A stretch of 64,000 nucleotides of DNA from Sinorhizobium psoraleae (lineage in GTDB: Bacteria > Pseudomonadota > Alphaproteobacteria > Rhizobiales > Rhizobiaceae): assembly GCF_013283645.1 (NCBI RefSeq), contig NZ_JABEKV010000003.1:248001-312000 (forward strand), read 5' to 3'. The translations under genes and the position numbers were made by a program. The notes under the pieces are model-generated. The model was not told the DNA's origin and searched no databases. It saw nothing but the letters and a program-made list of their open reading frames with translations. Shown piece after piece: positions 40,728 to 52,456 of the stretch; the first letter of the stretch is position 1, and the number at the start of each line of letters is the position of its first letter.

Positions 40728-41423
40728 TTACACGGTCAAATGCCGGCGTGCCTCCGCCGTATCCAGCGTTTCCGCCGGCCCCTCATGCACGAAGGCACCG
40801 CGATCCATGATGTAGACGTGGTCGGCGAGATCGCGGCAGAAGTCGAGATATTGCTCGACGAGCAGGATCGCCATGCCGGTCGAATCCCGCAGGTATTTGA
40901 TCGCCCGGCCGATGTCCTTGATGATCGACGGCTGGATGCCCTCGGTCGGCTCGTCGAGCACGAGGATTTTTGGACGCGTGACAAGCGCGCGACCGATGGC
41001 AAGCTGCTGCTGCTGGCCGCCGGAAAGATCGCCGCCGCGCCGGCCGAGCATGGCTTGCAGCACCGGGAACAGGCTGAAGATGTCCTCTGGGATCGAGCGG
41101 TCGGCCCGCTTCAGCGGCGCATAGCCGGTTTCGAGATTCTCCCTGACCGTGAGCAGGGGAAAAATCTCCCGCCCCTGCGGCACGTAGCCGACGCCGAGCT
41201 TCGCCCGGCGAAAGGGCGCCAAGCCGTCGAGCGGGGCGCCGTTGAAGGCGATCGCGCCGCTGGTCACCGGATGCTGGCCGGTGATCGCCCTGAGCAGGCT
41301 CGACTTGCCGACGCCGTTGCGCCCCAGCACGCAGGTGATCTTTCCCATCTCGGCCTTGATCGAGACGTTGCGCAAGGCCTGCGCGGCGCCGTAGTGAAGG
41401 CTGACGTTTTCGACGGTCAACAT
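40728..41423 (-). CDS. urtE: Urea ABC transporter ATP-binding protein UrtE
   Basis: The 231-residue LivF-type ATPase has Walker A GRNGVGKSS, LSGGQQQQ signature, Walker B ILVLDEPTEGIQPSII and VEQYLDFCRDLADHVYIMDRG. The EGIQPSIIKDIGRAI segment is characteristic of UrtE compared with LivF. Together with urtA-D it imports urea and short-chain amides. It ends the operon, 27 bases after urtD. Confidence 0.93.
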   Translation of the reverse strand: MLTVENVSLHYGAAQALRNVSIKAEMGKITCVLGRNGVGKSSLLRAITGQHPVTSGAIAFNGAPLDGLAPFRRAKLGVGYVPQGREIFPLLTVRENLETGYAPLKRADRSIPEDIFSLFPVLQAMLGRRGGDLSGGQQQQLAIGRALVTRPKILVLDEPTEGIQPSIIKDIGRAIKYLRDSTGMAILLVEQYLDFCRDLADHVYIMDRGAFVHEGPAETLDTAEARRHLTV

Positions 41424-41450: not shown

Positions 41451-42203
41451 TCATCGGCCGAGATAGTTTTCGATCACCTTCGGATCGCTGCTGACGAAGT
41501 CGATCGAGCCCTCCGCCAGCACCGAGCCCTCGGCAAGGCAGGTCACCTTGACGCCGAGATCACGAATGAAGCCCATGTCGTGCTCGACGACGACGACCGA
41601 GCGCGTCCTGGCGATTTCCTTGAGCAGCACGGCCGTCTCGGCCGTCTCCGCATCGGTCATGCCGGCGACCGGCTCGTCGACGAGCAGCAGTTCCGGTTCC
41701 TGCGCAAGCAGCATGCCGATCTCCAGCCATTGCTTCTGGCCGTGCGAGAGGTTGGCGGCGATATCGTCGCGCCGCGCCGTCAGGCGCACGGTCGAAAGGA
41801 TTTCCTCGATACGGGACCTATCCTCCGTCGTCAGGCGGTAGAACAGTGTCGCGAAGACGCCGCGGCTGCGGTTCAGCGCCAGTTCCAGATTGTCCCAGAC
41901 GGTGTGGATTTCGAACACCGTCGGTTTCTGGAACTTGCGGCCGATGCCGAGCTGGGCGATTTCTGCCTCGTCCCTTCGGGTAAGATCGATATCGCCCTTG
42001 AAGAAGACCTCCCCTTCGTCGGGTCGGGTCTTGCCCGTGATGATGTCCATCATCGTCGTCTTGCCGGCGCCGTTCGGACCAATGATTGCTCTCAGCTCGC
42101 CCGGTTCGACCACAAAAGAAAGCGAATTCAGCGCCTTGAAGCCGTCGAAGGAGACGGAGACGCCGTCGAGATAGAGCAGGCTCCTGGGTTTCTTCTCATT
42201 CAT
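41451..42203 (-). CDS. urtD: Urea ABC transporter ATP-binding protein UrtD
   Basis: The 250-residue LivG-type ATPase has Walker A GPNGAGKTT, MDIITGKTRPDEGEVFF, the signature LSHGQKQWLEIG, and LLLVDEPVAGMTDAET. LSHGQKQWLEIGM is typical of UrtD. The ATG at 42203 has GGAG eight bases upstream; a GTG at 42212 would overlap the stop of urtC and is less likely. Confidence 0.93.
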   Translation of the reverse strand: MNEKKPRSLLYLDGVSVSFDGFKALNSLSFVVEPGELRAIIGPNGAGKTTMMDIITGKTRPDEGEVFFKGDIDLTRRDEAEIAQLGIGRKFQKPTVFEIHTVWDNLELALNRSRGVFATLFYRLTTEDRSRIEEILSTVRLTARRDDIAANLSHGQKQWLEIGMLLAQEPELLLVDEPVAGMTDAETAETAVLLKEIARTRSVVVVEHDMGFIRDLGVKVTCLAEGSVLAEGSIDFVSSDPKVIENYLGR

Positions 42204-42208
42204 GACGA

Positions 42209-43384
42209 TCACTCCGCAGCCATCGGTTCTGCAGCCGGCAGGCCTGCCTCTTTGGCACTTACTCTTTCTTTCCGCGCGGCCTCGCGATAGGAGCGGCGTC
42301 GGGCAAGGTGGTGCTGTGCCGTGCCGACAATGCCCTTCGGCATGAGCAGCGTGACGAGCACGAAGAGCCCGCCAAGCGCGAAGAGCCAGAATTCCGGGAA
42401 GGCCGCGGTGAAGATGCTTTTTCCTCCATTGACGAGGATGGCGCCGATGATCGGGCCGATCAACGTGCCGCGCCCGCCGACCGCCGTCCAGATGACCACC
42501 TCGATCGAATTGCCGGGTTCGAACTCGCCGGGATTGATGATCCCGACCTGCGGCACGTAGAGCGCGCCGGCGACGCCGGCCATCATCGCCGAAACCGTAA
42601 AGGCGAAGAGCTTCAGGTGCTCGACGCGGTAGCCGAGAAAGCGGGTGCGGCTTTCCGCATCGCGCAGCGCCACCAGGACCTTGCCGAACTTGGAGCGCAC
42701 GATCCCTGATGTGACGACAAGCGAAACGGCGAGGGCCAGTGCGGAGGCGGCAAAAAGCACGGCGCGGGTTCCGGCCGCCTGGATGTTGAAGCCGAGAATA
42801 TCCTTGAAGTCCGTCAGCCCGTTGTTGCCGCCGAAACCCATGTCGTTCCTAAAGAAGGCGAGCAGCAGCGCGTAGGTCATCGCCTGGGTGATGATCGACA
42901 GATAGACGCCGTTGACCCGCGAGCGGAAGGCGAACCAGCCGAAGACGAAGGCGAGCAGGCCCGGCACGACGACGACCATCAGCGCCGCGAACCAGAACAT
43001 GTCGAAGCCGTACCAGAACCACGGCAGCTCATTCCAGTTCAGGAAAACCATGAAATCCGGCAGGAGCGGATTGCCATAGGAGCCGCGGGCGCCGATCTGG
43101 CGCATCAGGTACATGCCCATGGCATAGCCGCCGAGCGCGAAGAAGGCGGCGTGCCCGAGCGAGAGAATGCCGCAAAAACCCCAGACGAGATCGAGCGCCA
43201 GCGCCAGCAGCGCGTAGGTCAGATATTTTCCGAACAGCGAGACCAGATAGGTCGGCACGTGCAGCGGGTGATCCGGCGTCGTCAGGAGATTGAGCGCCGG
43301 AATGACAAGCGCGAGGCCGAGCAGGATCGCGACGGCGATGATGATCGTGCGATCGAGAGACTTGATGAGGAAAGAGGTGATCAT
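42209..43384 (-). CDS. urtC: Urea ABC transporter permease UrtC
   Basis: The 391-residue LivM-type permease has about ten membrane segments, GFCGILSLGHAAFFALGGYAMGMYL (in parts: GFCGILSLGHAAFF) and the C-terminal EVVIWTAVGGRGTLIGPIIGA family motif. The basic tail (RRRSYREAARKERVSAKEAG) is cytoplasmic. The ATG overlaps the urtB stop by 4 bases. Confidence 0.93.
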   Translation of the reverse strand: MITSFLIKSLDRTIIIAVAILLGLALVIPALNLLTTPDHPLHVPTYLVSLFGKYLTYALLALALDLVWGFCGILSLGHAAFFALGGYAMGMYLMRQIGARGSYGNPLLPDFMVFLNWNELPWFWYGFDMFWFAALMVVVVPGLLAFVFGWFAFRSRVNGVYLSIITQAMTYALLLAFFRNDMGFGGNNGLTDFKDILGFNIQAAGTRAVLFAASALALAVSLVVTSGIVRSKFGKVLVALRDAESRTRFLGYRVEHLKLFAFTVSAMMAGVAGALYVPQVGIINPGEFEPGNSIEVVIWTAVGGRGTLIGPIIGAILVNGGKSIFTAAFPEFWLFALGGLFVLVTLLMPKGIVGTAQHHLARRRSYREAARKERVSAKEAGLPAAEPMAAE

Positions 43385-44997
43385 GCTTCCACCGCCCGGC
43401 CCTTGAGTGCAAACAGCCCGCGCGGCCGCTTCTGGATGAAGAGGATGATCAGCACGAGCACGAGGATCTTGCCGAGCACGGCGCCGGCATAGGGCTCGAT
43501 GAATTTATTGAGGATGCCAAGCGAGAAGGCACCGACGAGCGTGCCCCAGAGATTGCCGACGCCGCCGAAGACCACGACCATGAAGCTGTCGATGATGTAG
43601 CCCTGGCCGAGGTTCGGCGAGACGTTGTCGATCTGCGAGAGCGCCACGCCCGCCATGCCGGCGATGCCGGAGCCGAGCGCAAAAGTCAGCGCATCGACCA
43701 CGGGCGTGCGTATGCCTATCGAGGAGGCCATGCGCCGGTTCTGCGTGACCGCGCGCATCTGCAAGCCCATCGGTGTTTTCTTCAGGAGGAACAGGAGACC
43801 GGCAAAGACGGTGAGCGCGAAAACAATGATCCAGAGACGGTTCCAGGTGACCGTCAACCCGCCGAGGTCGAAGGCACCGGACATCCACGACGGATTGCCG
43901 ACCTCCCGGTTGGTGGGACCGAAGATCGAACGCACCGCCTGCTGCAGGATCAGCGATATGCCCCAGGTGGCAAGCAGCGTTTCAAGCGGGCGACCGTAGA
44001 GGAAACGGATGACGCCTCGCTCTATCGCCAGTCCGACGGCACCGGTCACCAGGAAGGCGAGCGGCAGCGCGATCGCCAGCGACCAGTCGAAAAGACCGGG
44101 AAAGGACGTGCGGATGATCTCCTGCACGAGAAAGGTCGTATAGGCGCCGAGCATCACCATCTCGCCATGCGCCATGTTGATGATGCCCATGACGCCGAAG
44201 GTGATCGCAAGGCCGATTGCGGCGAGCAGCAGCACCGAGCCGAGGGAGAGCCCGTACCAGATGTTCTGGCCGGCAGCCCAGAGCGCCTGGCTTTGCTCGA
44301 TGCTGGCGAGCGCCGCCTCGATATCCGCCTTCAACGTCTCGTCGGCCGTGCCTAGGGCGGTCGAGAGAATGGAAAGCGCCTCGCGGCTGCCGCCTTGCTT
44401 CAGAATTTGAACGGCCTGTCGCTTCTCCTCGCCGGGACGGTCGGAGGTGAGGATCGCCGTCGCGCGCGCCTCTTCGAGCAAAACACGGATAGCCGCATCC
44501 TTCTCGGAGGCGAGCGCGTTTTCGATGGTCGGGAGCGCATCCGCGTTGGGTGCCTGCTTGATAGACTGCGCGGCCTTGAAGCGCTGATCGCGATCGGGGC
44601 TCAGCAGCGTCAGGCCGCCGAGCGCGGTGCGCACGGCACGGCGCACGCTGTTGTTCACCTTGATCTTCTGCAGCGCCCCCTTCGGCGCCTCGCCGGCGCT
44701 CTCGCCGGAAAGCGGATCGGTCAGCGTCAGGTTCGCCCCGTCTTCACGCGTCAGGAATACCTGGCCGTCGGCCTTGCGGGCATAGAGGTTGCCGTCGCCC
44801 AGCGCTTCGAGGACCGGCACTATCTTGGGATCGCCGCTCTTTGCGAGTGCCGCGATATGTTCGTCCATGTTGGAGAGCTTCGCCGTGCCGAGCGCGTTCA
44901 CCAGGTCGCGCAACGACTCGTGCGCCCTCAGTCCCGCGGTCGGGGTCGCGGTCAACAGGATCAGGGCCACAAGCACGGTTTGTAAGATGCGATACAT
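43381..44997 (-). CDS. urtB: Urea ABC transporter permease UrtB
   Basis: The 538-residue protein has a signal-like first helix, an exported helical-repeat domain (about 25-245; alternating LPTIENALASEKDAAIRVLL-type units) and a LivH-type permease part from about residue 250 (AAIGLAITFGVMGIINMAHGEM ff., in parts: GVMGIINMAHGEM). The long N-terminal domain distinguishes UrtB from LivH. The ATG at 44997 follows GAGGGGCGA; upstream codons to 45039 lack similarity. The gene is 176 bases after urtA with a hairpin between. Confidence 0.93.
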   Translation of the reverse strand: MYRILQTVLVALILLTATPTAGLRAHESLRDLVNALGTAKLSNMDEHIAALAKSGDPKIVPVLEALGDGNLYARKADGQVFLTREDGANLTLTDPLSGESAGEAPKGALQKIKVNNSVRRAVRTALGGLTLLSPDRDQRFKAAQSIKQAPNADALPTIENALASEKDAAIRVLLEEARATAILTSDRPGEEKRQAVQILKQGGSREALSILSTALGTADETLKADIEAALASIEQSQALWAAGQNIWYGLSLGSVLLLAAIGLAITFGVMGIINMAHGEMVMLGAYTTFLVQEIIRTSFPGLFDWSLAIALPLAFLVTGAVGLAIERGVIRFLYGRPLETLLATWGISLILQQAVRSIFGPTNREVGNPSWMSGAFDLGGLTVTWNRLWIIVFALTVFAGLLFLLKKTPMGLQMRAVTQNRRMASSIGIRTPVVDALTFALGSGIAGMAGVALSQIDNVSPNLGQGYIIDSFMVVVFGGVGNLWGTLVGAFSLGILNKFIEPYAGAVLGKILVLVLIILFIQKRPRGLFALKGRAVEA

Positions 44998-45051
44998 TCG
45001 CCCCTCGCACGGTTTCCGCGTCGGTTCGCGGCGCGGCATCGGTGAAAATGC

Positions 45052-45173: not shown

Positions 45174-46466
45174 TCAGGAACCCTTGCCGCCGCATTTTCC
45201 CGTGGCGATGTTGAAGTTGCCGCAGGACATCGGCGCCCGCCAGTCGGCGATAAGATCCTTCGAATCCGGCAGGTAGTCCGACCACTCGTCGCCGACGACC
45301 AGGCCGGGCGTCTCCCAAACGGTTTCGAACTGACCGTCCGACTGGATTTCGCCGATCAGCACCGGCTTGGTGATGTGGTGGTTCGGCATCATGGTGGAAT
45401 AGCCGCCGGAAAGGTTCGGCACGGAAATGCCGACCATGGCGTCAAGCACGGCGTCGGTGTCGGTGGTGCCGGCCTTTTCGACCGCCTTCAGCCACATGTT
45501 GAAGCCGATATAGTGGGCTTCCATGGGGTCGTTGGTCACCCGCTTGTCGTTCTTGGTATAGGCCTTCCAGGTCTTGATGAATTCGGCATTGGCCGGATTG
45601 TCGACCGATTGGAAGTAGTTCCAGGCGGCAAGGTGGCCGACGAGCGGGCCTGTGTCGAGGCCGGCGAGTTCTTCCTCGCCGACCGAGAAGGCGACGACCG
45701 GAATATCTTCGGCCTTGATGCCCTGATTGGCGAGCTCCTTGTAGAACGGCACGTTGGCGTCGCCGTTGATCGTCGAGACGACGGCGGTCTTCTTGCCGGC
45801 CGAGCCGAACTTCTTGATGTCGGAAACGATCGTCTGCCAGTCGGAATGACCGAAGGGCGTGTAGTTGATCATGATGTCCTCGGGCTTCACGCCCTTGGAG
45901 ATCAGATAGGCTTCGAGGATCTTGTTGGTGGTGCGCGGATAGACGTAGTCCGTGCCGGCGAGCACCCAGCGCTCGACCTCTTCGTTCTCCATCAGATAGT
46001 CGACGGCTGGGACCGCCTGCTGGTTCGGCGCCGCGCCGGTGTAGAAGACGTTGCGCTGGCTTTCCTCACCCTCGTACTGGACCGGGTAGAAGAGGATAGA
46101 GTTCAGTTCTTCGAAAACCGGCAGCACGGATTTGCGCGACACGGACGTCCAGCAGCCGAAGACGGCCGAAACCTTGTCGACGGAGATCAGCTCGCGGGCT
46201 TTTTCGGCAAAGAGCGGCCAATCGGAAGCGGGGTCGACGACGACCGCCTCCAGCTTCTTGCCGAGAATCCCGCCCTTCTTGTTCTGCTCATCGATCAGCA
46301 TGAGCATGGCGTCCTTGAGCGTCGTTTCGGAGATCGCCATGGTGCCGGAAAGCGAATGAAGAATACCGACCTTGATCGTGTCGTCCGCCGCAAAGGCGCC
46401 ATTGAACGCGGTCGTCGAAAGGGCGGCAGCAAGGAATGCGCCGCAAACGCGTGCCCTGATAGTCAT
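45174..46466 (-). CDS. urtA: Urea-binding periplasmic protein UrtA
   Basis: The 430-residue protein has a signal peptide (MTIRARVCGAFLAAALSTTAFNGAFA, in parts) cleaved before ADDTIKVGIL. It shows the UrtA/AmiC-like features ILHSLSGTMAISETTLKDA, FGCWTSVSRKSVLPVFEE and ILFYPVQYEGEE. The ATG at 46466 follows GAGGGG by nine bases. Urea uptake by this system supplies cytoplasmic urease with nitrogen; no urease gene lies in the window. The promoter should lie near the 30-base dyad at 46556-46585. Confidence 0.93.
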   Translation of the reverse strand: MTIRARVCGAFLAAALSTTAFNGAFAADDTIKVGILHSLSGTMAISETTLKDAMLMLIDEQNKKGGILGKKLEAVVVDPASDWPLFAEKARELISVDKVSAVFGCWTSVSRKSVLPVFEELNSILFYPVQYEGEESQRNVFYTGAAPNQQAVPAVDYLMENEEVERWVLAGTDYVYPRTTNKILEAYLISKGVKPEDIMINYTPFGHSDWQTIVSDIKKFGSAGKKTAVVSTINGDANVPFYKELANQGIKAEDIPVVAFSVGEEELAGLDTGPLVGHLAAWNYFQSVDNPANAEFIKTWKAYTKNDKRVTNDPMEAHYIGFNMWLKAVEKAGTTDTDAVLDAMVGISVPNLSGGYSTMMPNHHITKPVLIGEIQSDGQFETVWETPGLVVGDEWSDYLPDSKDLIADWRAPMSCGNFNIATGKCGGKGS

Positions 46467-46555
46467 CGGATTGAACCCCTCTTGTTCTGGTCGCGCAACG
46501 GGACGGTCGTTCTCCTTGGCCGTTGCTTGAGGGATCATCGACGAGTGGAGCTGCC

Positions 46556-46585
46556 CTGCACATACGTCATTCTACGTAGGTGCAG
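46556..46585. promoter_or_regulatory. 30-base dyad upstream of urtA
   Basis: CTGCAC-a-TACGT (46556-46567) ... ACGTA-g-GTGCAG (46574-46585), central spacer CATTCT; 11 of 12 positions in each arm are symmetric. It lies 90-119 bases upstream of the urtA start, where an activator would bind. The nearby LuxR-type response regulator (51536-52456) is a candidate ligand. Inferred from position and symmetry only. Confidence 0.5.
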
Positions 46586-46690: not shown

Positions 46691-47140
46691 TCACAAAAAG
46701 CTCGTCACCGCCGGTGGCCGGTCCCAGGCATCGTTTCGCCCGTCCTCGTAGATGATCGGGGCATTCGCCAGCTCCTCGTCGGTGGCATCGTCGAGGCAGG
46801 CGATATTCACCGCGTGGAACGGGCCGCCCAGCATCTCGAAATCGGCGCTGGCGAACGGGTGGACGCCGCAGTGCCGGCAGAAAACGTGGTGGATCGAGCG
46901 CTCGCCGAAGCGATATTCGGTGAGGGCCTCCTCACCGGAAAGCAAGGAGAAATCCTCAGGCGTGACGAAGACTTTCCAGAATCGCGTCTTCAGACAAAAC
47001 GAGCAGTTGCAGCGGAATGTCGACGTCCACCACACGCCGGGCCGCGCCGGCGTCGAGCGCTCCCTTTCCGGCGCAAGGTCGAGATTTGCGGAAAAGCGTA
47101 CTGCCTGGCATTGGCAGCTCCCGTGATAGGTCTTCTTCAT
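46691..47140 (-). CDS. GFA/CENP-V-type zinc-binding protein
   Basis: The 149-residue protein carries the zinc ligands of the glutathione-dependent formaldehyde-activating (GFA) fold: CQCQAV near the N-terminus, CNCSFC in the middle and CRHCGVHPF. Few family members have proven activity with formaldehyde; most are of unknown function. The ATG at 47140 follows GGAGG, and overlaps the stop of the SRPBCC gene (ATGA). Last gene of the arsR-SRPBCC-GFA operon. Confidence 0.88.
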   Translation of the reverse strand: MKKTYHGSCQCQAVRFSANLDLAPERERSTPARPGVWWTSTFRCNCSFCLKTRFWKVFVTPEDFSLLSGEEALTEYRFGERSIHHVFCRHCGVHPFASADFEMLGGPFHAVNIACLDDATDEELANAPIIYEDGRNDAWDRPPAVTSFL

Positions 47141-47601
47141 TCCATGGCCTCCTTCTGGGCAAAGACATAGGCAAGAAGCCGGTCCATGCACTCGCCCCAA
47201 CCCTCCATGTGAGAATCGCGGCTTTCGACGGTCGGGAATGGTGCCTGGTGGAAAGTAAGCCGCGTGCCGCTCTCGACCTCGTCGAAGGTGACCGTAATCA
47301 GTGTGTCCATCGCGTCCTCCTCTTCCCAGGCGAAAGTGAACACGATGCGGCTCGCCGGCACGATCTCCCGGTAGGTGCCGTGCGCCCAATAGTCCTGCCC
47401 TTCCGGCGAGCGGATGCAGCTGCGCCAGGTGCCGCCTTCACGGAAATCCGCGGTGATGCTGGGGACGGTGAAGTCCTTCGGACCCCACCAACGCGCCAGA
47501 TGTTCGGTTGCGGTCCAGACCTTGAAGACAAGGCTGCGAGGCGCGGCGAAAACGCGCGTGATGGTAAGGGCAATCTCTTGCTTGCGGGACGGGGCATTCA
47601 T
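47137..47601 (-). CDS. SRPBCC/AHSA1-domain protein
   Basis: The 154-residue protein has the START-like fold of the Aha1/CalC group: ITRVFAAPRSLVFKVWTATEHLARWWGPKDF (in parts: FAAPRSLVFKVWT, ARWWGPKDF), REGGTWRSCIRSPEG and a C-terminal HMEGWGECMDRLLAYV. These proteins bind hydrophobic ligands. A pairing with an ArsR-type regulator 30 bases upstream is a recurrent arrangement in Proteobacteria; what is bound is unknown. Confidence 0.9.
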   Translation of the reverse strand: MNAPSRKQEIALTITRVFAAPRSLVFKVWTATEHLARWWGPKDFTVPSITADFREGGTWRSCIRSPEGQDYWAHGTYREIVPASRIVFTFAWEEEDAMDTLITVTFDEVESGTRLTFHQAPFPTVESRDSHMEGWGECMDRLLAYVFAQKEAME

Positions 47602-47631
47602 CGGCTTCTCCCTTCGTTAGCAGCTCTGGCG

Positions 47632-47970
47632 TCAGTCATGACCGGATTTGCCGTTGCGCTGGAGTTCATGGAGATAGCTGTCGAGCCGGTCGAAGCTGCC
47701 CTCCCAGAACTGGCGGTAGCGCTCGACCCAGTCGGCAATTTCCTTCAGCGGCGCCGCCTCCAGCCGGCACGGGCGCCATTGGGCGTTGCGGCCCCGCGAT
47801 ATCAGCCCCGCGCGCTCCAGCACCTTCAGATGTTTGGAGACGGCAGGCAGACTCATGTCGAACGGGGCCGCCAGCTCGTTCACCGTCGCCTCGCCGGCGG
47901 CAAGGCGGGCGATAATGGCGCGGCGGGTCGGGTCCGCCAATGCCGACAAGGTGCTGCTCAACCGGTCCAT
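47632..47970 (-). CDS. ArsR-family transcriptional repressor
   Basis: The 112-residue winged-helix protein has LADPTRRAIIARLAAGEATV and the recognition region MSLPAVSKHLKVLERAGLISRGR. It has no CXC metal-binding motif, so it is of the non-metal group that accompanies SRPBCC proteins. It starts the operon and sits 6 bases from a perfect dyad, TTAACT-CAGC-AGTTAA, its likely own operator. Confidence 0.92.
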   Translation of the reverse strand: MDRLSSTLSALADPTRRAIIARLAAGEATVNELAAPFDMSLPAVSKHLKVLERAGLISRGRNAQWRPCRLEAAPLKEIADWVERYRQFWEGSFDRLDSYLHELQRNGKSGHD

Positions 47971-48165: not shown

Positions 48166-51100
48166 ATGGCGGCACGCCAGCGCATCATTCCCGTTCGACG
48201 AGAATACAATCGCTGGGTCGCCAACCAGACGCTCGAAGACTACGCCCTGCGCTTCACAGCGAAAAGCGCGCGGCGCTTTTCCTCCGAGCGCATCTCGCAG
48301 ACGGCGATCGGCGCGATTTCCTTCCTTGCACTGGAAGCGATCGGCGGCGCGATCACCATGTCCTACGGCACGACGAACGCGATCGTCGCGATCCTGGTCG
48401 CGAGCGTGATGATCCTGCTCGTTGGCCTGCCGATCAGCCGCTATGCCATCCGCCACGGCGTCGACATCGACCTTCTGACCCGGGGTGCCAGTTTCGGCTA
48501 TATCGGCTCGACGATTACGTCGCTGATCTACGCAAGCTTCACCTTCATTCTCTTCGCGATCGAGGCGTCGATCATGTCCGGGGCACTGGAGCTTGCCCTC
48601 GGGATCCCGCTGTGGATCGGCTATATCGTCAGCGCTGTCGTGGTTATCCCGCTCGTGACACACGGTGTCCGCCTCATCAGCAGGTTCCAGCTGATGACGC
48701 AGCCCTTCTGGATCGTGCTGAACATCCTGCCCTTCGCCTTCATCGCGTTCGCCGATTGGGAAAAAGTGGGGCTCTGGCTTGCCTATTCCGGCATCCACCA
48801 CACCTCCGGTCCGTCCGGCACCGTCGCGCCGTTCAATCTCCTCGAATTCGGCGCCGCCTCCGCTGTGATCTTCGCGCTGATGGCGCAGATTGGCGAACAG
48901 GTCGACTTTCTCCGCTTCCTGCCGCCGGACGGCCAGAGGAAGCTGCATCACCGCATCGCCGTCTTTCTCGCAGGCTCCGGCTGGGTGATCGTCGGCGCGC
49001 CGAAGCTGCTGGCCGGTTCGTTTCTCGTCGTGCTGGCGCTCAGCGCCGGCGTACCCTCGACGCGCGCCGCCGATCCGGCGCAGATGTACTACACCGCCTT
49101 CGGCTACATCTTTCCGTCGGATACGGCCGCACTCCTGCTGATGGTCGCCTTCGTCGTCATCTCGCAACTGAAGATCAACGTGATGAACGCCTATGCCGGG
49201 TCGCTCGCCTGGTCCAATTTCTTCTCGCGGCTGACCCACAGCCATCCCGGCCGCGTCGTCTGGCTGGTCTTCAACGTCGCGATCGCGCTCCTGCTGATGG
49301 AACTCGGCATCTATCGCCTGCTCGAGGAAACGCTCGGAATCTTCTCGATCATCGCCATGGCCTGGCTCTGCACGATTTCGGCCGATCTCTTCGTCAACAA
49401 GCCGCTGGCCTTGTCACCACCCGGCATCGAGTTCAAGCGCGCCCATCTTTACGACATCAATCCCGTCGGCCTCGGCACCATGGGTATCTCGGCGATCCTC
49501 GCGCTGACAGCCCATTTCGGCGCCTTCGGCGATATCGCCGCCTCGCTTGCCCCCTATATCGCGCTCGTCACCGCCTTCATCGTCTCGCCGCTGATCGCCT
49601 GGTGGACGGAGGGCAAATTCTATCTCGCCCGCAAGCCACGCAAGAGCTGGTTTCGCGAAAGCGAGATCACCTGCTCGATCTGCGAGCACCCGTTCGAGCC
49701 GGAAGACATGGCCTGGTGTCCGGCCTATGCCGCGCCGATCTGCTCGCTCTGCTGCTCGCTCGACAGCCGCTGTCACGACATGTGCAAGCCGAAAGCGCGG
49801 CTGAACACCCAGATCGCGACGGTCGCAAAGGCGATCCTGCCCGAGGCGGTGACCCAAAAACTCGCCACGAGGCTCGGCCGCTACGCGATCTCCGCCGTCC
49901 TCTCGATCACAGGCATCGGCATCATTCTTGCGATGATCGCCCATCAGACGACCGCCGCCTCGCCCGAGACCGCCGCCGTCGTCGAGCGGACAGTGGCGAT
50001 CGTCTTCTTCGTCTTCGCCATCTTTGCCGGCGTCGTCTCATGGTTCTATGTGCTCGCCCACGACAGCCGCGTGGTCGCGGAGGAAGAGTCCTCCCGCCAG
50101 AACACGCTGCTCCTGAAGGAGATCGCCGCGCACAAGAAGACCGACGCGGCGCTTCAGAACGCCAAGGAGGCGGCGGAAGCGGCAAACCGGGCGAAGAGCC
50201 GCTATGTCGTGGGCTTGAGCCACGAACTGCGCACGCCGCTCAATGCCGTGCTCGGCTATGCGCAGATCCTCGAACGCGACGAGACCATACCGCCGTCAAG
50301 GCAGGGGGCGATCAAGGTAATCAAGCGGAGCGCCGATCACCTCTCGGGTCTCATCGACGGCCTGCTCGATATCTCCAAGATCGAGGCCGGCAAGCTGCAG
50401 GTCTATTCCAACGAGATCAACATTCACGATTTCCTCGACCAGATCGTCGATATGTTCCGCCCGCAAGCGCAGGCCAAGGGCATTGCCTTCGAACACAACC
50501 GCGTGGCGTCACTGCCGCGATACGTGCGCGCGGACGAGAAGCGGCTCCGACAGATCCTCGTCAATCTCCTGTCGAATGCGCTGAAGTTCACCGAACGCGG
50601 CCGCATCCGCTTCGACGTCGGCTACCGCAACCAGGTTGCCACCTTCACGATCGAGGATAGCGGCCGCGGCATCAGCGACAAGGACCTGCCGCGAATCTTC
50701 GATCCGTTCCAGCGCGGCGAGGCTGAACATCGCATGCCCGGGCTCGGGCTTGGCCTGACCATCACGCGCCTCCTGACGCAGACGCTCGGCGGCGAAATCT
50801 CCGTGACCAGCGAAAAGGACAAGGGCACAGCCTTCAGGATCCGCCTGATGCTCTCCGCCGTCGACCGGCCAGCGGCGCTCAACGACCCGGTGCGCCGAAT
50901 CCGATCCTACAAGGGCGCCCGCCGCACCGTTGTCGTCGTCGACGACAACGCGGATCATCGCGATCTGATGCGCGAAGTGCTGGTCCCGCTCGATTTCGTG
51001 GTGCTGGCGGCGGCAGGCGGCCAGGAGTGCCTGACGCTCATCGAAGACATCAAACCCGACCTGTTCCTGATCGACATCTCCATGCCGGGCATGAACGGCT

Positions 51101-51543
51101 GGGAACTGGTGACGCAATTGCGTGAAAGCGGCCAGACGGCACCGGCGATCATGCTGTCGGCCAATATCGGCGATGGATCGACCGCCGGCGCCGCAGGCGG
51201 CCACAACGACACGCTCGCCAAGCCCTTTGGCGTCCGCCAGCTCATCGACAAGCTGGCGATCCATCTCGGCCTCGAATGGATCCATGAGGACGATGGCAAG
51301 AACGCCAACGGCAGCACCGATCCTGTGACCAATCCCGGACACCACCACGTGGAGGAGTTGATCCGGCTCGGCGAAATCGGCTACGTCAGGGGCATCGAGG
51401 CGAAGCTGACGGAGATTGCCCTGAACCCGGAGAACCAGGCCTTTGCCGAGGCGGTACGCGCCTATGTGCGGGCCTTCGACCTCTCGGGCTACGACGCCTT
51501 CCTGAAACGGCTGACGGCAGAGGAGGCCGGCACACGTGGCTGA
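48166..51543 (+). CDS. Hybrid sensor histidine kinase with an NCS1-type transporter as input domain
   Basis: The 1,125-residue protein fuses several modules. Residues 15-480 are a complete NCS1 (nucleobase/hydantoin/cation symporter-1) type transporter with about 12 membrane helices (AIGAISFLALEAIGGAITMSYG region, then GASFGYIGSTITSLIYASF). Residues 503-540 hold eight cysteines (C503, C506, C518, C526, C529, C530, C536, C540) in a zinc-finger-like cluster. Two more membrane helices (about 567-590, 605-630) and a coiled coil precede the HisKA domain with H686 (GLSHELRTPLNAVLG), the ATPase domain (NLLSNALKF, DSGRGI, GLGLGLTI) and a receiver with D970 (LIDISMPG). The ATG at 48166 follows GAGG. 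It overlaps the response-regulator gene by 8 bases. Likely a transporter-like sensor for a nitrogenous solute; with urtABCDE nearby, urea or a purine breakdown product is a candidate. Confidence 0.9.
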   Translation: MAARQRIIPVRREYNRWVANQTLEDYALRFTAKSARRFSSERISQTAIGAISFLALEAIGGAITMSYGTTNAIVAILVASVMILLVGLPISRYAIRHGVDIDLLTRGASFGYIGSTITSLIYASFTFILFAIEASIMSGALELALGIPLWIGYIVSAVVVIPLVTHGVRLISRFQLMTQPFWIVLNILPFAFIAFADWEKVGLWLAYSGIHHTSGPSGTVAPFNLLEFGAASAVIFALMAQIGEQVDFLRFLPPDGQRKLHHRIAVFLAGSGWVIVGAPKLLAGSFLVVLALSAGVPSTRAADPAQMYYTAFGYIFPSDTAALLLMVAFVVISQLKINVMNAYAGSLAWSNFFSRLTHSHPGRVVWLVFNVAIALLLMELGIYRLLEETLGIFSIIAMAWLCTISADLFVNKPLALSPPGIEFKRAHLYDINPVGLGTMGISAILALTAHFGAFGDIAASLAPYIALVTAFIVSPLIAWWTEGKFYLARKPRKSWFRESEITCSICEHPFEPEDMAWCPAYAAPICSLCCSLDSRCHDMCKPKARLNTQIATVAKAILPEAVTQKLATRLGRYAISAVLSITGIGIILAMIAHQTTAASPETAAVVERTVAIVFFVFAIFAGVVSWFYVLAHDSRVVAEEESSRQNTLLLKEIAAHKKTDAALQNAKEAAEAANRAKSRYVVGLSHELRTPLNAVLGYAQILERDETIPPSRQGAIKVIKRSADHLSGLIDGLLDISKIEAGKLQVYSNEINIHDFLDQIVDMFRPQAQAKGIAFEHNRVASLPRYVRADEKRLRQILVNLLSNALKFTERGRIRFDVGYRNQVATFTIEDSGRGISDKDLPRIFDPFQRGEAEHRMPGLGLGLTITRLLTQTLGGEISVTSEKDKGTAFRIRLMLSAVDRPAALNDPVRRIRSYKGARRTVVVVDDNADHRDLMREVLVPLDFVVLAAAGGQECLTLIEDIKPDLFLIDISMPGMNGWELVTQLRESGQTAPAIMLSANIGDGSTAGAAGGHNDTLAKPFGVRQLIDKLAIHLGLEWIHEDDGKNANGSTDPVTNPGHHHVEELIRLGEIGYVRGIEAKLTEIALNPENQAFAEAVRAYVRAFDLSGYDAFLKRLTAEEAGTRG

Positions 51544-52456
51544 CCCCGCCAATCCTCGCGATATCGTTCTGCTGGTCGACGATTCGCCGGAGGCCCTGGG
51601 CTTCCTGACTGAAGCACTGGAACAGTCCGGCTTCTCCGTGCTGATCGCCACGTCCGGCAACGCCGCCTTGAATATTGCCGACCGCATCACCCCCGACATT
51701 ATCCTGCTCGATGCCGTGATGCCTGGCATGGACGGTTTCGACACCTGCGTCAGGCTCAAGGCGAACGCCTCCGTCTCCCAGGTTCCGGTGGTCTTCATGA
51801 CCGGGCTCACCGAGACGGAGCACGTGGTGCGTGCACTTGAGGCGGGCGGCGTCGACTATCTCACCAAGCCGATCAATATCGATGAACTGAGGGCCCGCAT
51901 CCGCGTCCACCTCTCCAATGCGCGTTCCGCCCAGAGCGCGCGGGTTGCGCTCGATGCGGCCGGGCGCCACCTGCTTGCCGTGCGCGGCGACGGCGGCGTC
52001 CGCTGGTCGACGCCGCAGGCGACGCGCCTCGTCAATGCCGCCACAGGCAGCGACGACGGCCTTGCGGTCGTCACCGCGCGCATCGCCGAATGGATGCTGC
52101 AGCGCGAAAAGCATGGCTCCGGTCAGGCCAGCTTCACACTACAGCAGGCGGGGCAGACGGGCTTGCAGATTTCCTATCTCGGCGCCGTTGGCTCCAACGA
52201 ATATCTCTTCCGCCTGACCGCCGAGAACGGCATGAGCGACGACGAGATGTTGCGCCAGCATTTCCTGCTGACGCAGCGCGAATCCGAGGTGCTGCTGTGG
52301 ATCGCCAAGGGCAAATCCAATCGCGACATCGGCGAGATCCTCGGCTTGAGCGCCCGCACCGTCACCAAGCATCTCGAACAGATCTACGTGAAGCTCGGCG
52401 TCGAAAACCGAGCCTCCGCGGCGGTCAAGGCGACGCAGGTCCTGCACGGGATCTGA
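51536..52456 (+). CDS. LuxR/NarL-type response regulator coupled to the NCS1 sensor kinase
   Basis: The 306-residue protein has a receiver domain (1-125; phosphoacceptor D59 in ILLDAVMPGMDG, K in LTKPIN), a central PAS-like stretch (about 145-230) and a C-terminal LuxR helix-turn-helix (LTQRESEVLLWIAKGKSNRDI, read as LTQRESEVLLWIAKGKS then NRDIGEILGLSARTVTKHLE). The start is GTG at 51536 after GGAGG, within the end of the sensor gene, so both are made together. It probably regulates genes for the solute sensed; urtABCDE is the nearest transporter operon. Confidence 0.9.
   Translation: MADPANPRDIVLLVDDSPEALGFLTEALEQSGFSVLIATSGNAALNIADRITPDIILLDAVMPGMDGFDTCVRLKANASVSQVPVVFMTGLTETEHVVRALEAGGVDYLTKPINIDELRARIRVHLSNARSAQSARVALDAAGRHLLAVRGDGGVRWSTPQATRLVNAATGSDDGLAVVTARIAEWMLQREKHGSGQASFTLQQAGQTGLQISYLGAVGSNEYLFRLTAENGMSDDEMLRQHFLLTQRESEVLLWIAKGKSNRDIGEILGLSARTVTKHLEQIYVKLGVENRASAAVKATQVLHGI

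Follow-up and report, generated by a model that had tools for sequence, protein, structure and literature searches.

Urea is a major nitrogen source in soil and in the host. Among the described sensors that carry a transporter ahead of a histidine kinase, the closest to the one considered here include the SLC5/STAC-type kinases, some of which, according to passages of PMC7918813, are hybrid kinases and some of which are paired with a LuxR-type regulator; such transporter–kinase fusions also figure in excerpts of PMC13022988 and PMC9100948. Excerpts of PMC12918730 describe an ammonia-responsive kinase, and those of PMC13390362 an NCS1 metformin transporter, that is, a non-nucleobase solute for the NCS1 family. 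In the open-access literature, outside which most subscription journals lie, we found no description of urea sensing through a carrier-domain kinase or of an NCS1–kinase fusion; in the searchable portion of PMC8534201, which names Ks-Amt5, the term 'NCS1' does not occur, and in that of PMC8399564 it occurs in a reference title only.

Here we describe such a fusion in a stretch of 64,000 nucleotides from Sinorhizobium psoraleae (GCF_013283645.1, contig NZ_JABEKV010000003.1, positions 248,001 to 312,000; the window), in which a single open reading frame encodes an NCS1-carrier hybrid histidine kinase (the sensor), is followed by the gene of a response regulator (the regulator) and lies 1.7 kb from the urea importer genes urtABCDE (Table 1). 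The pair belongs to a urea/amide two-component system that is real, conserved and widespread and whose receptor domain has the NCS1 fold. From comparative genomics, a regulatory link from sensor and regulator to urtA is very likely. We consider it probable that the sensor is a receptor kinase for urea, perhaps ancestrally for short-chain amides, and that the regulator activates the importer from a palindrome ahead of urtA.

Architecture of the sensor and regulator

Open reading frame, Pfam, alignment and structural model agree on the anatomy given in a preliminary description of this locus, namely one chain that runs from a carrier through an eight-cysteine cluster and two further helices (modelled at residues 569-598 and 600-644 in the AlphaFold model of the N-terminal part) to HisKA with H686, an ATPase domain and a receiver with D970. 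Its relatives show that this is no chance reading frame: of 151 genomes from the same family, 45 encode a strong homologue of residues 1-640 (at E 0.001 the number rises to 47, with two weak matches), and GTDB (one genome per species) holds at least 589 related stretches. H686 is invariant and D970 nearly so in a 22-row alignment that includes two rows without a receiver. The H-box histidine, ATPase domain and receiver aspartate mark the protein as a predicted hybrid histidine kinase, and its complete carrier, joined to HisKA/HATPase in one chain, places it in the broad class of transporter-fused histidine kinases. The sensor extends past the receiver (51277-51540, the LGEIGYVRGIEAKL region); this extension is kept in most relatives and has no Pfam match.

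The regulator starts within the 3' end of the sensor gene, as was also noted earlier, and is of LuxR type by its Pfam domains (Response_reg 11-123, GerE 245-299). A homologue lies directly 3' of the sensor in 80/80 loci from the best 80 of those at least 589 stretches, the set on which all GTDB locus analyses are based, and also in the family and phylum loci, except for four (L053, L054, L237 and L239) with a receiver-less kinase.

NCS1 fold and candidate substrate site

Direct labelling of the carrier as NCS1 from its sequence failed: residues 1-645 have no Pfam family match in the window copy, none of 22 relatives has an NCS1 match, and a PDB profile search likewise did not recognize the domain as NCS1. 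The assignment draws instead on fold and on a bridging relative. An AlphaFold model of residues 1-645 from 47 rows (mean predicted local distance difference test score (pLDDT) 78.1, predicted TM score (pTM) 0.77; residues 1-37 below 50) retrieved CodB and Mhp1 at ranks 1-5 of a Foldseek search of the PDB (E 7e-8 to 9e-7, target TM 0.63-0.75), with SGLT, Nramp and others ranking lower. By the same evidence the domain does not qualify as an SLC5 carrier, the N-terminal part being without a Pfam match and NCS1 structures standing ahead of SLC5. The distant stand-alone relative L252 passes Pfam NCS1 PF02133 (36.4 bits against a cut-off of 23.5) and also matches TIGR00800, below the cut-off (59.4 versus 353.1 bits), and hhalign aligned the carrier-family profile with a six-sequence NCS1 profile at 94.0% probability (E 1.4e-7). 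Because of the Foldseek matches, the bridging relative and the profile–profile alignment, the carrier is, as modelled, NCS1 by fold and remote from the NCS1 core by sequence; the NCS1 label proposed for it at the outset is thus supported, with Pfam blind to it.

Carrier-domain residues of note are E57, E133, E244, D247, K336, N338 and N341. The substrate and Na+ sites of Mhp1 and CodB, the retention of which had been raised as a check, are kept in part. Specifically, in the alignment with the two structures, Mhp1 N318 corresponds to N341 and Mhp1 Q121 to E133. The aromatics W117 and W220, presumably the residues that stack on the hydantoin ring, are replaced by L129 and M239, and S312 and T313, which we take to be the Na2 positions, by K336 (an invariant lysine) and I337. 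E133, K336 and N341 are invariant in all 115 fused and 5 stand-alone rows tabulated. Na+-driven nucleobase-type transport by this domain seems unlikely because the aromatic clamp is lost and the Na2 serine is now K336; the pattern of site residues would suit a small non-ring solute and Na+-independent coupling. Residues that would separate urea-linked from amide-linked carriers were also sought, and just four conservative changes emerged (193, 274, 327 and 401), for which we claim no role as specificity determinants.

Linkage to urea and amide genes

Counting genes within 11 kb as linked, 162 of 177 sensor loci have the sensor beside a UrtA-type importer or urease genes; the loci come from family (46), GTDB (80) and phylum (51) sets that partly share genomes. 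True urtA is present in 29 of the family loci (11 also with urease), an amide-type importer in 9 and none in 8; the corresponding numbers for the best 80 GTDB loci are 55 (24 with urease), 22 and 3. The phylum survey found a match in 54 of 398 genomes at E 1e-10 (partial only in G382 and G433), and from 53 regions fetched the distant stand-alone carrier L252 and L253, which has no carrier, were left out. The remaining 51 loci comprise 6 with urt (4 with urease), 34 with an amide-type importer, 7 with urease only and 4 with none. The 15 loci classed as 'none' include contig ends or short contigs (L119, L133, L208, L250), a fragment (L055), the four loci with the other kinase type, five (L039, L040, L057-L059) with urtA roughly 11-60 kb away, and L124, whose contig equals that of L039 in length. 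Sensor and importer are mostly divergent neighbours. Sensors directly adjoin urease operons in L235, L238, L240, L241, L244, L246, L247, L249 and L251.

At each of the 34 amide-type phylum loci, one or more amidase-type matches lie nearby (27-39% identity to the queries), and formamidase is annotated at the Klebsiella plasmid and Thioclava sensor loci. The linkage to importer, urease and amidase spans Alpha- and Gammaproteobacteria. Among plasmids, 540 records match, 342 of them from Klebsiella, from which one sensor locus was examined (L167); there, the plasmid carries the amide-type sensor as a single unit with the regulator, a UrtA-like importer and formamidase. Within the family, 41 of 45 genomes with the sensor have true urtA, versus 58 of 106 sensor-less genomes (Fisher p 1.0e-5), with G124 counted as lacking it, its sole match being a second-type binding protein. 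No purine or hydantoin catabolism annotation was found in the five sensor/carrier neighbourhoods whose annotation was read first.

A palindrome that accompanies the system

The 450-bp regions upstream of urtA at sensor-linked loci (88 found, 84 after near-copy filtering) contain one outstanding dyad, TACGT-N7-CGTAT, in 78 of the 84, compared with 4 for the best dyad in shuffled sequences. The exact motif precedes urtA in 83/88 linked loci, and a palindrome of at least 15 bits does so in 86/88, versus 0/490 shuffles. In the 7.4-Mb genome of the window, the urtA site is the only exact match to TACGTNNNNNNRCGTAT; one-mismatch matches in this genome are not above a reversed control (30+32 versus 52+61 in all).

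Palindrome and system co-occur almost strictly. The palindrome stays at urtA in 5/5 genomes in which the sensor lies roughly 11-60 kb away, and true urtA is without it in 6/6 genomes that hold an amide-type sensor only. It is missing from 48 of 49 urtA upstream regions of sensor-less family genomes (40 + 9 regions, with nine more such genomes not fetched, and the regulator not searched for in those 48); the lone exception, L294 of genome G126, keeps a regulator orthologue and a carrier-less kinase. A related palindrome, TACG-N8-CGTA, occurs in the 450 bp upstream of the sensor itself in 50/67 amide, 42/92 urt, 4/14 'none' and 0/7 urease-only loci (L169, an eighth row of the last class, is a stand-alone carrier), against 16/3620 in shuffles. 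The urt loci that lack it at the sensor have the palindrome at urtA instead. Because none of the seven urease-only loci has it, the regulator site of these sensors may differ from the palindrome.

A conserved GATAGT-like element, read by eye as similar to a -10 box, begins 39 bp beyond the first position of the palindrome; a sigma-70 consensus scan of the interval between urtA and the sensor gave no match. If this element is the -10 box, the palindrome is centred near -43. Control by activation is likely by analogy, because this position is comparable to that of CrbR, which, according to passages of PMC5715377, works through an inverted repeat that spans -52 to -36 relative to the acs start site.

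Neighbourhoods and palindrome together support the urea link suspected from the window. The purine breakdown product that had been named as a second possible signal is not favoured, the linked genes being those of urea and short-chain amides and the five neighbourhoods read first showing no annotated purine or hydantoin catabolism. A broader version, in which the signal is general nitrogen status, a purine product or hydantoin instead of urea or amides, draws on nucleobases and hydantoins being the familiar substrates of NCS1 carriers, and on the dicarboxylate-transport genes (so annotated in S. meliloti) on the other side of the sensor in the window. We judge it very unlikely in view of the importer, urease and amidase linkage across two proteobacterial classes, the sole exact palindrome of the genome at urtA and the missing ring-stacking aromatics.

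Stand-alone carriers, cysteine cluster and carrier loss

Homologues of the carrier also exist without a kinase, and in 5/6 loci these adjoin urease, formamidase or aliphatic amidase (two of the loci hold nearly the same Acinetobacter protein). Urease lies beside the carriers of Acinetobacter lwoffii, Acinetobacter ursingii and Klebsiella (a chromosome-sized record), formamidase beside that of Moraxella and aliphatic amidase beside that of Arthrobacter. The carriers at L357:8956-10563, L360:9001-10608, L359:8926-10569 and L361:9013-10689, annotated as cytosine/allantoin permease or hypothetical and adjoining urease, formamidase or amidase, are, on the basis of their neighbours, probable urea/amide permeases. 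At L252:8949-13981 (+), the gene of a distant NCS1-like carrier precedes those of a double nitrilase-type amidase, an AmiC-like protein and an AmiR/ANTAR protein.

Does the fused carrier still transport? It could be a true transceptor, performing H+-coupled urea/amide transport while its kinase monitors the transport cycle, a scheme put forward for CbrA and histidine. The carrier fold is complete and retains its central polar residues, the stand-alone homologues beside urease and amidase genes are presumably transporters, and K336 at the Na2 position recalls the lysine described for the Na2 site of CbrA in passages of PMC13022988. Yet the ABC importer encoded next door would make a second uptake route redundant, and transport loss could underlie the 25 columns in which fused and stand-alone carriers differ (of which three belong to the cysteine tail, and including L56-E57 versus D56-F57 in transmembrane helix 1 (TM1)), so that this possibility, although real, stays short of an even chance. 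Changes common to fused carriers in TM1, TM3 and TM8 and missing from the five stand-alone ones, together with the loss of the Na2 residues, speak for a receptor that does not transport, comparable to the Amt domain of Ks-Amt5, an ammonium sensor kinase. K336 and E133, however, are also present in the stand-alone carriers and by themselves are no mark of transport loss; a non-transporting receptor comes close to an even chance.

The cluster cysteines (503, 506, 518, 526, 529, 530, 536 and 540) are each kept in 119/119 kinase-fused rows. Cysteines 503, 506, 526 and 529 are present in 4/5 aligned stand-alone carriers, none of which has 530, 536 or 540; 518 occurs in the Streptomyces one only. 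No Pfam match over the cut-off lies between carrier and kinase, and no STAC model was compared. The distribution of the cysteines would fit a part in structure or, as first suggested, in coupling conformation, metal or redox state to the kinase; we infer from it one zinc-ribbon-like site that came with the carrier and another acquired on joining the kinase. The invariance of all eight residues could also mean that the cluster is the real sensor, of zinc, nickel or redox state, merely anchored or tuned by the carrier, and urease does require nickel. This seems improbable given that four of the cysteines are common to most kinase-less carriers, that amide-clade rows, classed as without urease nearby, retain all eight, and that carrier phylogeny tracks importer type. 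Nickel sensing was rated low on the second of these grounds.

Importer or neighbour type changes 12 times along the carrier tree compared with a shuffled mean of 54.8 (a quick tree of 125 of 186 rows, near-copies dropped, in which the root serves display alone, 26 branches are open and the long branches L167, L168, L248 and L052 are unsure). Amide-type loci are scattered over the tree, and urea- or urease-linked groups arise in separate places. In L053, L054, L237 and L239, the carrier and cysteine module are joined to the different, receiver-less HisKA kinase; at L237:6901-8166 (-), the neighbour of the carrier-kinase is a protein in which a receiver precedes the kinase, a different downstream pathway. 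In G126 (L315:8119-9648, -), a kinase of the same kind is cut to 509 residues with one helix and without carrier and cysteines, and is still accompanied by the regulator, the urtA palindrome and urease, which by sequence is a natural loss of the sensor module.

A wider proposition, for which we see an even chance, is that these proteins constitute a widespread, hitherto undescribed NCS1-derived class of urea/short-chain-amide receptors. Its zinc-ribbon-tailed carrier would have been fused to kinases on two or more occasions (hybrid and receiver-less) and have gained a second four-cysteine site for signal transfer, with several independent switches from amide to urea genes, and its stand-alone members, annotated as cytosine/allantoin permeases, would be urea/amide permeases.

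Proposed mechanism and counter-evidence

Given the urea/amide neighbourhoods and the regulatory site, the role of nitrogenous-solute receptor that was first suggested for the carrier is the likeliest reading. In the mechanism that we propose, the NCS1-fold domain would bind urea (perhaps ancestrally short-chain amides) at its central site, and its conformational state would be passed through the cysteine-rich, zinc-ribbon-like tail and the pair of extra helices to the core formed by HisKA and ATPase. Phosphate would then reach the REC-LuxR regulator, with the attached receiver modulating or relaying, and the regulator would bind TACGT-N7-CGTAT ahead of urtA and activate urtABCDE.

Several observations weigh against urea reception by the carrier and control from the palindrome. 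The binding-site comparison depends on a distant alignment (14-18% identity to the matched structures), and no residue in the conservation table cleanly splits urea-linked from amide-linked carriers. The 'amide' label rests on neighbouring amidases of 27-39% identity, because the second-clade binding protein of Klebsiella also exceeds the UrtA TIGR03407 cut-off (555.9 versus 492.75 bits). The Streptomyces stand-alone carrier and L254, a far more remote homologue (24% over half the query), both lack a urea or amide gene neighbour. The related palindrome is missing upstream of the sensor in 7/7 urease-only, 17/67 amide and 50/92 urt loci. Finally, the circuit of G126 persists with a carrier-less kinase, so that at least one lineage can do without the carrier.

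Genomic context in the window

The window UrtA scores 573.8 bits against the TIGR03407 cut-off of 492.75. S. meliloti pSymB carries the same locus, including the three-gene block between urtA and the sensor; AHSA1 and ArsR queries had no match in this interval in the 46 family loci.

Table 1 Features of the sensor–regulator system and its surroundings, in window coordinates
Feature	Position	Strand	Evidence or remark
NCS1-carrier hybrid histidine kinase, 1125 residues	48166..51543	+	ATG at 48166, stop ends 51543; open reading frame, Pfam, alignment, fold match
NCS1-fold carrier domain, residues 1-494	48166..49647	+	AlphaFold2 model, Foldseek, hhalign, conservation
Eight-cysteine cluster, residues 503-540	49672..49785	+	All eight invariant in fused rows
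Two extra transmembrane/signalling helices, residues 569-644	49870..50097	+	Secondary structure of model
HisKA with H686, residues 677-742	50194..50391	+	Pfam PF00512
HATPase_c, residues 790-896	50533..50853	+	Pfam PF02518
Receiver with D970, Response_reg 922-1030	50929..51255	+	Pfam PF00072
Response regulator, REC + LuxR/GerE	51536..52456	+	GTG start at 51536 inside sensor 3' end, 8-nt overlap
Proposed regulator site TACGTAGAATGACGTAT	46562..46578	-	Starts ~112 bp upstream of the urtA start used (ATG 46466)
urtA, urea ABC transporter substrate-binding protein	45174..46538, likely start ATG 46466	-	NCBIfam TIGR03407
urtB, permease	43381..45039	-	Open reading frame; gene order as in annotated S. 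meliloti
urtC, permease	42209..43384	-	Pfam BPD_transp_2; S. meliloti order
urtD, ATPase	41451..42212	-	Pfam ABC_tran; S. meliloti order
urtE, ATPase	40728..41423	-	Pfam ABC_tran; S. meliloti order
GFA-family, AHSA1-type and ArsR-type genes between urtA and sensor	46691..47970	-	Deemed outside the system

Implications and comparison with known systems

If true, the proposed mechanism names the likely signal, regulator, DNA site and target of a system represented by at least 589 GTDB stretches and 342 Klebsiella plasmid records, would correct cytosine/allantoin permease annotations, and offers a second LeuT-fold carrier family for asking how a transporter becomes a receptor. The natural series of stand-alone carrier, fused carrier and carrier-less kinase makes that question testable.

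UreR-type regulators are AraC-type and intracellular. They have urea-dependent gene control in common with the proposed circuit, in which a membrane receptor kinase would take the place of the intracellular regulator. AmiC/AmiR, the control of aliphatic amidase, is an antitermination system without a kinase; the point of contact is the distant stand-alone carrier that adjoins an AmiC-like gene, an AmiR gene and an amidase. Mhp1 and CodB have in common with the sensor the fold and the equivalent of Mhp1 N318; by contrast, the sensor has K336/I337 for the Na2 serine/threonine, no aromatic clamp, and an added cysteine tail and kinase. Ks-Amt5, in the accessible passages of PMC5764959 and PMC8534201, is likewise a membrane carrier domain fused to a kinase and a receptor for a small nitrogen solute, although its Amt fold is unrelated to NCS1 and nothing in these passages concerns urea import. 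The SLC5/STAC kinases (CbrA, CrbS/MxtR, RpuS) and the SSS-type hybrid kinase PrlS also have a LeuT-fold carrier N-terminal to the kinase. Compared with the SLC5/STAC kinases, the carrier described here is NCS1-like and not SLC5, an eight-cysteine module and two helices separate it from the kinase, and the linked genes are those of urea and amides instead of acetate, pyruvate or histidine.

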